Source: a virus. From it: a DNA stretch of 27,939 nt. Shown here in pieces: positions 7,391-26,713 of the stretch. The DNA is taken from positions 1 through 27,939 of the IMG/VR virus record IMGVR_UViG_3300011115_000060; one strand, written 5' to 3'. Within the stretch, counting starts at the first letter, position 1, and every line of letters starts with the position of its first letter. A program made the position numbers and the translations under genes. The notes below the pieces were generated by a model, which was not told where the DNA came from, did not search any database, and saw only the letters and a list, made by a program, of their open reading frames with translations.

Positions 7391-7753
7391 ATGGCAATAC
7401 CATCACGAGTACTATCAGCAGGAAATTCACCACTGTCATCAACGGTTATATGCGGTGATGGCGCAACTGGTCTGGTTGCAGTTGGCACGACAGCCGCAGA
7501 CGCATTACAGCTATCAGCGGTATTCAACTCGATTACGACCAGCTCGGCCAGTACGGGCGTGAAACTGCCACCAACAGAAGTCGGGATGGTGATCGGAATT
7601 CGTAACGATTCTGGCCAGACCATAGCGGTATATCCGTATTCGACTGCTAGCACGATTAACGCAGCAGCCACCAGTGTTAACTTGGCAGATGCCAAAACCA
7701 TGCTTTTATTTGCAACTTCCAGCACTAAACTTGCTAGCGTAACAACCGCCTAA
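7391..7753 (+). CDS. Small beta-rich structural-region protein
   Basis: A 120-residue protein rich in Ser, Thr, Ala and Val. The segments NSITTSSASTGVKLPP, VIGIRNDSGQTIAVYPYS and INAAATSVNLADAKTMLLFATSS resemble small phage structural proteins with an N-terminal strand region and a compact beta domain (pattern TGVxLP, then NxSGxxxxVYP). It sits between the DUF115 gene and a conserved tail-region gene. It is probably a minor virion component; the exact role is unknown. Confidence 0.6.
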   Translation: MAIPSRVLSAGNSPLSSTVICGDGATGLVAVGTTAADALQLSAVFNSITTSSASTGVKLPPTEVGMVIGIRNDSGQTIAVYPYSTASTINAAATSVNLADAKTMLLFATSSTKLASVTTA

Positions 7754-7765
7754 AGGGAAAAATAT

Positions 7766-8311
7766 ATGCTTGACTCAGATAATTACAATGCAGATGAAAA
7801 CCTAAACGTTGAGTTTTACTACAGTAAAGAGCCGCGTTACGAAGGGAAGCCGTTTGTAAGGATTATCATCCCGTCTGACAAGCATAACTGTCCTGAAAAG
7901 CTGGTGGATGAAGATATAAAAAGACGTTTTCCTCGGCAGTGGTTACATTTCCAGATGCAGCATGATAATAACCATGTCATCGGTACGCCACTGTCTGAGT
8001 GGAACGCAAAACACCCAGAAGAACTGACTGAGTATCAGATGCAGGAATTGTTTATTTTAAAATTCCAGACTATTGAGCAACTGGCTAATGCGACTGACGC
8101 CCAGATACAGCGTATCGGTATGAACGCCCAGGGTTTACGAAGCAATGCAAAAAGGTATTTAGTCTCTAAAAACCAGTCGCAGTCTGAACTGAAGGCAAAC
8201 TATGCAGCCAGCGAAGTAGACGAACTTAAGAAAATCATTGCTGATATGCAGATTGCTATGAGTGAAAAGTCTCGCAAAACTGGAAGACCCAAAAAACAAC
8301 CAGAGGAATAA
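7766..8311 (+). CDS. Conserved phage protein with helix-hairpin-helix-like region
   Basis: A 181-residue protein with a good SD (AAGGGAAA before ATG 7766). The N-terminal half contains EGKPFVRIIIPSDK and RRFPRQWLHFQ. Residues about 87-132 read LTEYQMQELFILKFQTIEQL, then ANATDAQIQRIGMNAQGLRS, a spacing resembling a helix-hairpin-helix or SAM-like fold. A short coiled coil and a basic tail (KSRKTGRPKKQPEE) follow. I recognise the overall pattern from conserved hypothetical proteins of podovirus structural modules. A scaffold, adaptor or DNA-contacting role in the particle is possible; none can be proven from sequence. Confidence 0.62.
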   Translation: MLDSDNYNADENLNVEFYYSKEPRYEGKPFVRIIIPSDKHNCPEKLVDEDIKRRFPRQWLHFQMQHDNNHVIGTPLSEWNAKHPEELTEYQMQELFILKFQTIEQLANATDAQIQRIGMNAQGLRSNAKRYLVSKNQSQSELKANYAASEVDELKKIIADMQIAMSEKSRKTGRPKKQPEE

Positions 8312-19690: not shown

Positions 19691-19767
19691 ACAGCGAAAA
19701 TATTATTTATGCACTAGTCCTGTCCATGTGCATTAATTTAGTATTTTTTATTGCTTTGTGTCTTTAA
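19687..19767 (+). CDS. 26-residue single-helix membrane peptide between holin and endolysin
   Basis: A short ORF starting at an ATG overlapping the holin stop (ATGA). The peptide starts MNSENIIYA, and the remainder (LVLSMCINLVFFIALCL) is one hydrophobic membrane helix. The tight coupling to the holin gene and one-base gap to the endolysin start argue for real translation. No family recognised; it may be a lysis modulator. Confidence 0.5.
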   Translation: MNSENIIYALVLSMCINLVFFIALCL

Positions 19768-19768
19768 A

Positions 19769-20230
19769 ATGCTGACTAAAAACTTCACCCTAGCTGAATT
19801 GACTTTTAGCCAGATGGCCAATGACTGTAAACTTGACAACACGCCTGACGCATTGACAACAGAGAATTTAAAGCTGTTGTGTGAGAACATCTTACAGCCT
19901 ATCCGTGACCACTACGGCAAACCAGTCAAAGTAAATTCAGGTTATCGGTCAGCAGAAGTAAACTCCCTAGTCCGCGGCAGTAGTGTCTCGGACCATGTTT
20001 TCGGATGTGCGGCTGACATCGAAATACAGGGCTCTACTAACGTAGAGTTAGCCGTGTGGATAAAAGAAAACCTGAAATTTAGCCAGTGCATATTGGAATT
20101 CTATACGCCTGGACAACCATCATCCGGCTGGGTACACGTGAGTTACAAACCGCAAAACCTGAAATGCCAGACCCTAACTGCATCGAAGACTGGTGGGAAA
20201 ACCCACTATCAGACCGGTATCATCGCTTAA
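19769..20230 (+). CDS. M15-family endolysin (peptidoglycan peptidase)
   Basis: A 153-residue protein. The frame is open from 19751, but ATG 19769 (MLTKNFTLAELTFS) gives the standard N-terminus of the peptidase M15A / DUF882-like family. Zinc-binding motifs are present: SDHVFGCAADIE supplies the first His and an Asp near residues 75-82, and VHVSYKP near residue 122 supplies the last His. GKPVKVNSGYRSAEVNSLVRG is the conserved loop before them. It cuts the peptide cross-links of peptidoglycan. There is no signal peptide, so it needs the holin upstream to escape. Confidence 0.87.
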   Translation: MLTKNFTLAELTFSQMANDCKLDNTPDALTTENLKLLCENILQPIRDHYGKPVKVNSGYRSAEVNSLVRGSSVSDHVFGCAADIEIQGSTNVELAVWIKENLKFSQCILEFYTPGQPSSGWVHVSYKPQNLKCQTLTASKTGGKTHYQTGIIA

Positions 20231-20701: not shown

Positions 20702-20823
20702 GCGACTTCTGGTGGCAAGTTGCCGAGCAAGAGCAACAGCAGCAAGAATTCGAGATGACACAAGAGCAGCAGGAACTTGAGCTGATTGAGTTTCATAAGT
20801 GGCTTGATGAAATTGGGATGTAG
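20698..20823 (+). CDS. 41-residue Gln/Glu-rich small protein with TTG start
   Basis: A small ORF starting at TTG 20698, which overlaps the previous stop (TTGA). GGAGG at 20685-20689 lies eight bases upstream, a near-perfect SD, and is the reason for this start. The peptide reads SDFWWQVAEQEQQQQEFEMT, then an amphipathic Gln/Glu helix, and ends HKWLDEIGM. The second promoter and the leader RNA begin right at its end. Function unknown. Confidence 0.6.
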   Translation: MSDFWWQVAEQEQQQQEFEMTQEQQELELIEFHKWLDEIGM

Positions 20824-20831
20824 TGTATAAT
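20804..20831 (+). promoter_or_regulatory. Sigma70-type promoter before the structured leader
   Basis: TTGATG (20804-20809) and a perfect TATAAT (20826-20831) are separated by 16 bases. Transcription would start near 20838, exactly where the folded leader RNA begins. The promoter overlaps the end of the 41-residue gene. Confidence 0.68.
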
Positions 20832-20837
20832 TAAAAC

Positions 20838-20890
20838 CGGCAGGACAGCCTACGGTTTCTGGTGCTCAATCCACCGGATTACTGCCACTT
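20838..20890 (+). ncRNA. Leader RNA resembling the C4 antisense RNA of phage P1
   Basis: This folded leader forms a three-way junction by hand pairing. The outer stem is GGCAG (20839-20843) with CTGCC (20882-20886). Hairpin A is AGCC (20847-20850) with GGTT (20854-20857) around TAC. Hairpin B is CTGGTG (20859-20864) with CACCGG (20872-20877) around the 7-nt loop CTCAATC (20865-20871). That loop is exactly complementary to GATTGAG (20899-20905), which runs into the ribosome-binding site of the following 13-codon ORF. A promoter sits just upstream. This is the layout of C4 RNA, which in P1/P7 silences icd/ant translation by pairing near the icd ribosome-binding site. The family assignment is by structure and context and needs a covariance search. 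Confidence 0.65.
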
Positions 20891-20892
20891 TT

Positions 20893-20910
20893 AAACCTGA
20901 TTGAGAGGTG
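20893..20910 (+). promoter_or_regulatory. Target site of the leader loop, overlapping the ribosome-binding site
   Basis: AAACC (20893-20897) and GATTGAG (20899-20905) are complementary to GGTTT (20854-20858) and to loop CTCAATC (20865-20871) of the leader. GAGAGGTG (20903-20910) is the SD for ATG 20914. Pairing would block initiation on the small ORF and, through overlap, on the DUF1376 gene. Confidence 0.6.
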
Positions 20911-20913
20911 TCT

Positions 20914-20955
20914 ATGAACAAAAACTTCCACATTGGAGTATTCCATCATGGCTAA
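20914..20955 (+). CDS. 13-residue leader peptide overlapping the replication gene
   Basis: ATG 20914 with SD GAGAGGTG gives MNKNFHIGVFHHG and stops at TAA 20953-20955, a few bases past the ATG of the DUF1376 gene (20948). Ribosomes finishing this peptide would be at the next start, so translation of the two is likely coupled. The arrangement parallels the icd ORF ahead of ant in phage P1. Small size limits certainty. Confidence 0.5.
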   Translation: MNKNFHIGVFHHG

Positions 20956-21775
20956 ATGCGATGTATGGATGCCACTTTATATTGGCGATTACCTGTCCAA
21001 TACGTCAAGGCTGACAACAGAACAGCATGGCGCATACCTGCTTTTAATTATGGACTACTGGGTTAACGGCCGTCTGCCTGACGATGATGCAGCCCTGGCT
21101 AACATAACAAAACTTGCGTTCGACCGTTGGTTGGTACTTAGACCAACAATAATAAAGTATTTTGATACGCAAAACGGTGAATTAATCCAGAACAGAATTG
21201 AGTCTGAAAAGGGAAAGGCAGAGTATCTTTCTAAGGTTAGGTCTGTTGCAGGAAGCAAAGGTGGTAGCAAAACTCAAGCAAATGCTCAAGCAAATGCTCA
21301 AGCAAACGAGCAGCACGGATTAACACCTTCACAATCACCTTCACCTTCACCTTTACCACCACAGTTACCATCACCACCACAGCCACCTAGTTCCGACAAG
21401 CCTACGGCATTGCCGGTTGAAAAAAAATACTATAAGTCAGCAGAAACTTTTAAGGCATACAGTGCTGCATACGAAATTAGGTACAAAGCAAAGCCGGTTA
21501 GAAACACATCTGTTTCATCAAAGTTATGTCAATTTGTCGATAGAGTCGGAGTAGAAGAAGCGCCATTAATTGCTGCATATTTCGTTAGTCACAACAACGA
21601 GTGGTATGTAAAAAATGGCCATCAAGTTGGCGCATTGCTTCAAGATGCTGAAAAACTGCGAACAGAATGGGCAACAAATACACAAATAACTTCAACAAAA
21701 GCTAGCCAGTCAGACAAAAAACAATCAAACCTTAATGTTTTTCAGGAGGTAGCAAATGTCCTTAAACTTACTTAA
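20948..21775 (+). CDS. DUF1376-family replication protein
   Basis: A 275-residue protein. TTG 20933 could extend it by five codons, but ATG 20948 with GGAG (20935-20938) nine bases upstream is preferred. Residues 1-90 (MAKCDVWMPLYIGDYLSNTS, then LTTEQHGAYLLLIMDYWVNG) are the DUF1376 domain, a winged-helix-like region of phage replication initiator and primosome proteins. A low-complexity linker (QANAQANAQANEQ, then a Ser/Pro-rich stretch) joins it to a C-terminal domain with WYVKNGHQVGALLQDAEKLR. It probably starts phage DNA replication or loads helicase, with the partner encoded next. Its translation seems to be controlled by the upstream leader. Confidence 0.82.
   Translation: MAKCDVWMPLYIGDYLSNTSRLTTEQHGAYLLLIMDYWVNGRLPDDDAALANITKLAFDRWLVLRPTIIKYFDTQNGELIQNRIESEKGKAEYLSKVRSVAGSKGGSKTQANAQANAQANEQHGLTPSQSPSPSPLPPQLPSPPQPPSSDKPTALPVEKKYYKSAETFKAYSAAYEIRYKAKPVRNTSVSSKLCQFVDRVGVEEAPLIAAYFVSHNNEWYVKNGHQVGALLQDAEKLRTEWATNTQITSTKASQSDKKQSNLNVFQEVANVLKLT
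21273..21308 (+). repeat. Three 12-bp direct repeats in the replication gene
   Basis: CTCAAGCAAATG occurs at 21273-21284 and 21285-21296, and as CTCAAGCAAACG at 21297-21308. They encode the QANAQAN linker. A run of ccttcac/ccacca units follows. Direct repeats inside a replication initiator gene recall the lambda O gene, whose iterons form the origin. Confidence 0.8.
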
Positions 21776-26215: not shown

Positions 26216-26713
26216 ATGATCGTGAAAACAATTCTATGTGCGGCTGGATTGGCAATATCAACACAAACACAGGTGCAGTATCTGGCCTGTGAAGCAAATT
26301 TAGACTTAACGGCTGGATACTTTGATAGATTTACAAAGGCAGACGAGAAGCAGATTAATTGCCTGGCTGAAAATATTTATCACGAGGCACGAGGTGAACC
26401 GGAAAAAGGCATGGTAGCTGTTACAAATGTAGTTATGAATAGGGTGCATAACGACAAGTTTCCGAAAAACCCATGTGATGTAATTGCAGAGAAGAAAAAG
26501 AAAAGGTGTCAATTTAGCTGGAAATGCAAGAAAGTAGGACCGGCAAAGCCAGACGACGAAATGATTGACATAGCAGAACAGGCTTACACAAACGAATTGC
26601 CGGACGTTACAGGTGGCGCATTATTTTTCCATGCTAACTACATCAAACCCAGATGGAAGTTGAAACGTACAGCGGTGATTGGTAACCATATATTTTACAA
26701 GGGTAAAACTTGA
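26216..26713 (+). CDS. SleB-family cell wall hydrolase with signal peptide
   Basis: A 165-residue protein with SD GAGGTG (26204-26209). The N-terminus MIVKTILCAAGLAISTQTQ is a likely signal peptide. CLAENIYHEARGEPEKGMVA (catalytic-type Glu), then VTNVVMNRV, CQFSWKC and ALFFHANYIKP are the motifs of the SleB / Hydrolase_2 family of peptidoglycan lytic enzymes. It lies among early genes, far from the endolysin at 19769. It could act from the periplasm, for example at infection or in superinfection control, or be an auxiliary lysin. The stop overlaps the next gene. Confidence 0.85.
   Translation: MIVKTILCAAGLAISTQTQVQYLACEANLDLTAGYFDRFTKADEKQINCLAENIYHEARGEPEKGMVAVTNVVMNRVHNDKFPKNPCDVIAEKKKKRCQFSWKCKKVGPAKPDDEMIDIAEQAYTNELPDVTGGALFFHANYIKPRWKLKRTAVIGNHIFYKGKT

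Follow-up and report, generated by a model that had tools for sequence, protein, structure and literature searches.

The window (the whole 27,939-nucleotide stretch of viral DNA analyzed here) carries on its + strand a gene for a 275-aa primosomal/replication-initiation-like protein of the DUF1376 family (PF07120; 20948..21775), recognized by Pfam (1.1e-14, in a search that used the ORF taken from 20933) and by PHROG primosomal-protein families. The ATG of this gene at 20948 lies inside a 13-codon ORF on the same strand (MNKNFHIGVFHHG; 20914..20955), which ends with its stop at 20955, so that the two reading frames overlap. The initial annotation had likened the small ORF to icd. The ORF and its overlap with the DUF1376 start codon are indeed there, but the arrangement is not general: in that form the ORF is unique to the window and is absent from the relatives (L120, L112 and L548) and from the int-alpA-like leaders described below.

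Upstream of both genes is a sigma-70-like promoter (TTGATG-16-TATAAT; 20804..20831, + strand). Its −10 hexamer, TATAAT (20826-20831), follows TTGATG at a distance of 16 nt and ends 7 nt before the first stem of a predicted RNA, and the transcript should start at or next to this stem. Fold prediction gives the RNA three stems in the layout P1-GACA-P2-P3-UUA-P1', all on the + strand. P1 has only 5 bp, formed by GGCAG (20839..20843) and CUGCC (20882..20886) in both the predicted fold and a composite alignment with two relatives (see below). It is followed by the junction GACA (20844..20847), the last A of which may open P2, a weak hairpin in the MFE fold (AGCC-UAC-GGUU, 20847..20857; strands 20847-20850/20854-20857) that has its 5' A in common with the junction. 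Fold and alignment both place P3 next (UCUGGUG-7-nt loop-CACCGGA, 20858..20878; strands 20858-20864/20872-20878), a hairpin with a conserved U.G wobble, and the linker UUA (20879..20881) connects it to P1'.

The P3 loop, CUCAAUC (CTCAATC in DNA; 20865..20871), is the candidate antisense element and is comparable to b' of C4 RNA. All 7 of its nucleotides are complementary to GAUUGAG (GATTGAG; 20899..20905, + strand), which lies 27 nt further along the same molecule, directly 5' of and overlapping the Shine-Dalgarno sequence GAG/AGGUG. A TATAAT promoter, a three-stem RNA, the loop, its target and the ORF overlap had all been described in the initial annotation, as had an exact loop-target match at the ribosome-binding site (RBS), and each of them is present where it had been placed.

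Other features of the region carry less weight. Energy alone is no argument, since the folding energy departs only mildly from shuffled sequence (z about −1.8 to −2.0), and GATTGAG by itself is not rare (6 occurrences in the window versus 3.5 expected). One extra copy at 20784-20790, ~80 nt before the loop and upstream of the promoter, was weighed as a site of the a1/b1 kind and then dropped, because chance would allow for it. A possible weak second target, AUUGGAG at the Shine-Dalgarno sequence of DUF1376 (20932..20938, + strand), matches the loop over 4 contiguous bases; this is within chance, not significant alone, and too weak to support a second site in the window.

The window stops within the early region, and its annotated part showed no integrase; the only protein resembling a regulator is a short match of HTH type at the right edge. 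Since no integrase was seen and the early region is cut off where the record ends, the sequence does not establish lysogeny. The proposal in the initial annotation that the RNA decides whether the phage replicates or stays silent goes beyond the evidence. The window also holds two different endolysin-type genes, one for a peptidase M15 in a lysis cassette (19751-20230) and one for an endolysin-like protein inside the early/recombination region (26216-26713).

Relatives of the leader and loop-target covariation

Viral contigs were searched with the pattern CTGRTGN7CAYCGGATTAC, in which the P3 stem and the linker are fixed and both loop and target are free. Of 12 stretches returned, 2 (L120 and L112) also have the rest of the structure, and each of these carries a 7/7 complement of its loop abutting an RBS; the other 10 matches reach at most 6 nt. 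L120 is the closest relative. Its leader (loop CTGATAC, target GTATCAG) precedes a GIY-YIG-like ORF, which occupies 7705-8049 between the leader and a DUF1376 gene, and the DUF1376 protein is 79-80% identical to that of the window. The 13-codon ORF of the window may be a remnant of such a GIY-YIG-like insertion or the place where one entered. In L112, the leader (loop CCCGTAT, target ATACGGG) lies between tail genes, before a tail-operon gene that follows a major tail protein gene, and has no promoter-like hexamer; a single function for the class is therefore not established.

The window, L120 and L112 were combined into a compact composite alignment of P1, GACA, P3, loop, UUA, P1' and target. 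In this alignment, each of the three sequences pairs along the whole loop-target helix, and 6 of the 7 pairs show double-sided change. The structure as a whole is 98.2% paired versus 80.9% when shuffled, and sliding destroys the pairing. Loop-target complementarity is thus kept, by compensatory change, in unrelated sequence contexts. A covariance model built from the same three sequences found a fourth, L548, which lies directly before another DUF1376 gene and reads GCCGG-GACA-P2-GCCCU[ACCCUAA]AGGGC-UUA-CCGGC. Its loop matches the RBS region over 5 bp only (CCCUA/UAGGG), with GACA, UUA and P1 kept, and the GACA and UUA junctions are invariant in all four otherwise different sequences. Conservation of the loop-target match in related phages, which the initial annotation had named as a check on its reading, is borne out in full in L120 and L112 and as a shorter helix in L548.

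Could the loop-target match nevertheless be chance complementarity in an ordinary 5' UTR? The folding energy alone is unremarkable (z −1.8) and the target heptamer is common, which speaks for chance. However, the 7/7 covariation was seen in two loci that had been found without using loop or target. In addition, a full descriptor (hairpin of at least 7 bp, 7-nt loop complementary to an RBS site, closing stem of at least 5 bp) was run over both strands of 549 sequences (4.27 Mb); it returned 6 rows, and none in dinucleotide shuffles. The six rows are the window, L120 and L001 (one contig), L112, and two AT-rich coding matches. Since L120 and L112 had entered the set through other patterns, it is the covariation and not the descriptor count that provides the real test. 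We consider a chance match very improbable.

The class is rare, with four members known. Four further scans, with broader viral patterns and over genome contigs, yielded no more members with loop-RBS complementarity, and a covariance model of the class found no member in 760 genomes (369 gammaproteobacterial and 391 clostridial). Three matches of the model in those genomes were judged to be chance, being either coding sequence or without GACA and target; one of them had an E of 2e-7, a value that comes from a rough calibration. A weak match in Undibacterium (L551) was rejected as coding-like, and three related contigs with partial similarity turned out to be coding and to lack the fold. No relative came up when phage records were searched by BLAST with the window and with the L112/L120 leaders. 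The spaced pair CTCAATC-N27-GATTGAG occurs in 109 stretches across viral contigs and is uninformative alone.

Comparison with C4, P4 CI and IsrK RNAs

The leader resembles the C4 RNA of P1/P7 (RF01695) in three respects: (i) a closing stem surrounds two hairpins, the second of which holds the antisense loop, (ii) the RNA lies just upstream of its target on the same transcript, and (iii) the loop (b', pairing with b2 in C4) matches a site right next to the Shine-Dalgarno sequence of a downstream ORF, which in the window, though not in the relatives, is a small ORF overlapping the regulated gene. In P1, b2 abuts the icd Shine-Dalgarno sequence 10 nt before the ATG, and the target in the window has the same spacing and position. 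This overall order and b'/b2 geometry are what a genuine C4 member, processed by RNase P and pairing via a' and b', would have. We nonetheless regard membership as hardly tenable. The Rfam C4 search suggested by the initial annotation gave no RF01695 match in the window at the gathering score (45 bits), nor in 20780-20960 at E up to 10; with the same tool, P1 C4 and P4 CI scored 68.8 and 74.9 bits, so the model works here and the non-match is informative. A general Rfam scan of the window and the leader region returned nothing relevant. The linker between P3 and P1' is the 3-nt UUA, hence there is no a', and the two junctions (none and a' in C4) are GACA and UUA in the window. Where C4 makes contacts through both a' and b', the window has one 7-nt loop contact. 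P1 C4 is trimmed by RNase P (PMC5320573). In the window, unlike in phage P1, the promoter abuts stem P1 and would leave no 5' precursor to trim; given the −10-like hexamer so near, the transcript probably begins with this RNA. Finally, C4 of P1/P7 targets an antirepressor, whereas the putative target here is a replication gene. Of the earlier comparison with C4, the order of elements and the loop-RBS logic are thus supported, and the family membership is not.

A replication target has a precedent in phage P4: its CI RNA shuts off the expression of replication genes and base-pairs with two sites, seqA and seqC (PMC4825925). Because P4 CI RNA already silences replication genes, a C4-type RNA gating replication would not be new. 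P4 CI has the C4 fold and acts on the class of target proposed for the window, but it is a processed RNA that acts by transcription termination via two flanking sites. The window has one target site, at the RBS, which suggests translation control. In the P4 sequence (L549), the CI region lies at 1921-2008 (74.9 bits with the C4 model) and is preceded by two elements, one resembling isrK (60.8 bits) and one resembling c4-a1b1.

We consider it probable that the leader is a C4-like translational switch at the start of the replication operon, in a sequence class separate from C4. The best supported part of this reading is that loop-RBS pairing would control translation of the first ORF and hence of DUF1376. 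By analogy, the leader most likely controls replication-gene translation in the manner of P1 C4 from outside the C4 family, and we propose that it works like the b'/b2 half of that RNA. Transcription would start next to P1 and produce a compact three-way-junction RNA, the 7-nt loop of P3 would pair with GAUUGAG abutting the RBS of the first ORF, and this pairing would block ribosome loading on the 13-codon ORF. Through translational coupling between that ORF (stop at 20955) and DUF1376 (start at 20948), less of the primosomal protein would then be made. Within one molecule, the pairing would take the form of a loop-RBS pseudoknot; a leader set free as a short RNA could also act in trans as C4 does. 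We infer both the repressive sign and the coupling through the 13-codon ORF. Since this ORF is particular to the window phage and not conserved, the coupling proposed through it is tentative.

Sequence alone does not separate a cis pseudoknot from a trans antisense RNA. In a cis-only switch, the junction (GACA, UUA and the U.G wobble) would bind a small ligand or a phage or host protein, the P3 loop-RBS pseudoknot would be the expression platform, and no diffusible RNA would be needed. The junction nucleotides are invariant in four different sequences, which is beyond the needs of a plain antisense hairpin. The short distance from loop to target on one molecule (27 nt), the promoter directly before P1, and the location of the L112 element among the genes of a tail operon, where an immunity RNA would hardly be expected, point the same way. 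However, the junctions of C4 and int-alpA are also invariant without a known ligand, there is no metabolic gene theme, and no Rfam riboswitch matched. A cis-only switch therefore seems to us a rather unlikely, if serious, alternative.

The direction of control could also be the opposite. In Gifsy-1, a promoter is followed by the IsrK sRNA and the small orf45, which is coupled to anrP, and the short form of the RNA activates the read-through mRNA (PMC4825925). The window likewise has an RNA close to the promoter and, after it, a small ORF overlapping or linked to the regulated gene. The direction of the effect cannot be read from the sequence; IsrK, from a similar read-through layout, activates. 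If the window worked in this way, the read-through mRNA would be closed in cis by loop-RBS pairing, and a short leader RNA from the same promoter would open it in trans and so activate. We judge such positive control to be improbable. IsrK exists in short and read-through forms. The window has no terminator of quality after P1' (only ACUUUUAAA). There is no sequence relation to isrK, and the folds differ. Activation in trans would in addition need a second interaction, and the analysis identified no site that could serve it.

int-alpA RNAs and other DUF1376 leaders

Ninety-eight distinct upstream regions of DUF1376 homologues were collected from two alignment-based scans. About thirty of them have a different three-stem leader (CUAG...GAAAAG...CUGC) that resembles the int-alpA RNA of Rfam (RF02996). 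These int-alpA-like leaders share with the window their place before DUF1376, a promoter abutting P1, three stems, and complementarity of the P3 loop to a downstream site. They differ in their letters (CUAG-P2-CGAAAAG-P3-CUG) and in that they usually have two target sites; the RF02996 consensus also has a U-run after P1. The window region, with its GACA/UUA junctions, has no RF02996 match at E up to 10. Several of the int-alpA-like leaders scanned gave 35.1, 34.8, 34.1, 33.4 and 33.0 bits, where the gathering threshold of RF02996 is 35.8. Of 28 leaders of either class that were examined for a promoter, 27 have a −10-like hexamer at a distance of 2-11 nt upstream of P1, the exception being L112. 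The int-alpA-like leaders, a more common class before DUF1376 than that of the window, are found ~100 nt before the gene in L513, L526, L532, L474, L486, L490, L495, L516, L521, L533 and others.

Across 24 distinct int-alpA-like leaders, a site that lies ~24-30 nt ahead of the start of DUF1376 can pair with the P3 region. The complementarity is at least 6 nt in 23 of the 24, versus 1.3% in mismatched controls in which loops were paired with the downstream regions of leaders having a different loop; many of the 24 are close relatives and do not represent 24 independent events. Loop and site change together between subgroups, as seen in the pairs CATCAC/GTGATG, CTTCAC/GTGAAG, CACCTT/AAGGTG, ACCCTT/AAGGGT, TAGTCA/TGACTA and AGTCAA/TTGACT. 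A second, shorter site nearer the DUF1376 start is complementary over at least 4 nt in 96% (30% in the control) and over at least 5 nt in 43% (5% in the control).

RF02996 itself scored above threshold in 38 of the 369 gammaproteobacterial genomes scanned. At the 17 int-alpA loci in which arms and loops were readable, two sites ahead of the next ORF can pair with the P3 loop, site 1 at ~20-34 nt and site 2 at ~10-13 nt from the start of that ORF. The mean complementarity is 5.88 nt at site 1 and 5.00 nt at site 2. When loops were permuted among loci the means fell to 4.66 and 3.86, and not one permutation in 3000 was as high as the real mean at either site. Together with the complementarity in the int-alpA-like phage leaders, this backs the loop-target logic of the window independently. 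The same complementarity is present in the consensus letters of RF02996, between the loop AaaCCuUua and the conserved tail uaAgGG. No proposed mechanism for int-alpA was found in the literature searched, which did not include the 2017 paper describing the family. The int-alpA loci are those numbered L635-L663; the first 60 residues of two downstream ORFs gave no Pfam match.

On balance, we lean toward the view that C4, int-alpA and the window class are separate sequence classes of one widespread control principle of phages and satellites. A promoter-proximal three-way-junction RNA would pair through a loop with the sequence around the Shine-Dalgarno of the gene that follows it, and in many cases also with another copy of the site further upstream, and would thereby set expression of replication or satellite genes. 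If so, int-alpA, an orphan Rfam family, would gain a testable function and a concrete mechanism, and C4-type control would extend beyond P1/P7/P4. The DUF1376 gene would be preceded by interchangeable RNA leaders of different sequence with one loop-against-RBS logic, and the 7-nt loop/target pairs would be programmable with predictable specificity.

Two other DUF1376 leaders (L472, 1380-1500; L580, 870-985) have a long three-stem structure that ends in 8-9 T. The loop of the L580 leader, CTTAAAAAA, can pair with the T-run together with the AAG of the Shine-Dalgarno sequence. From its sequence, this leader type looks like an attenuator that would also hide the RBS.
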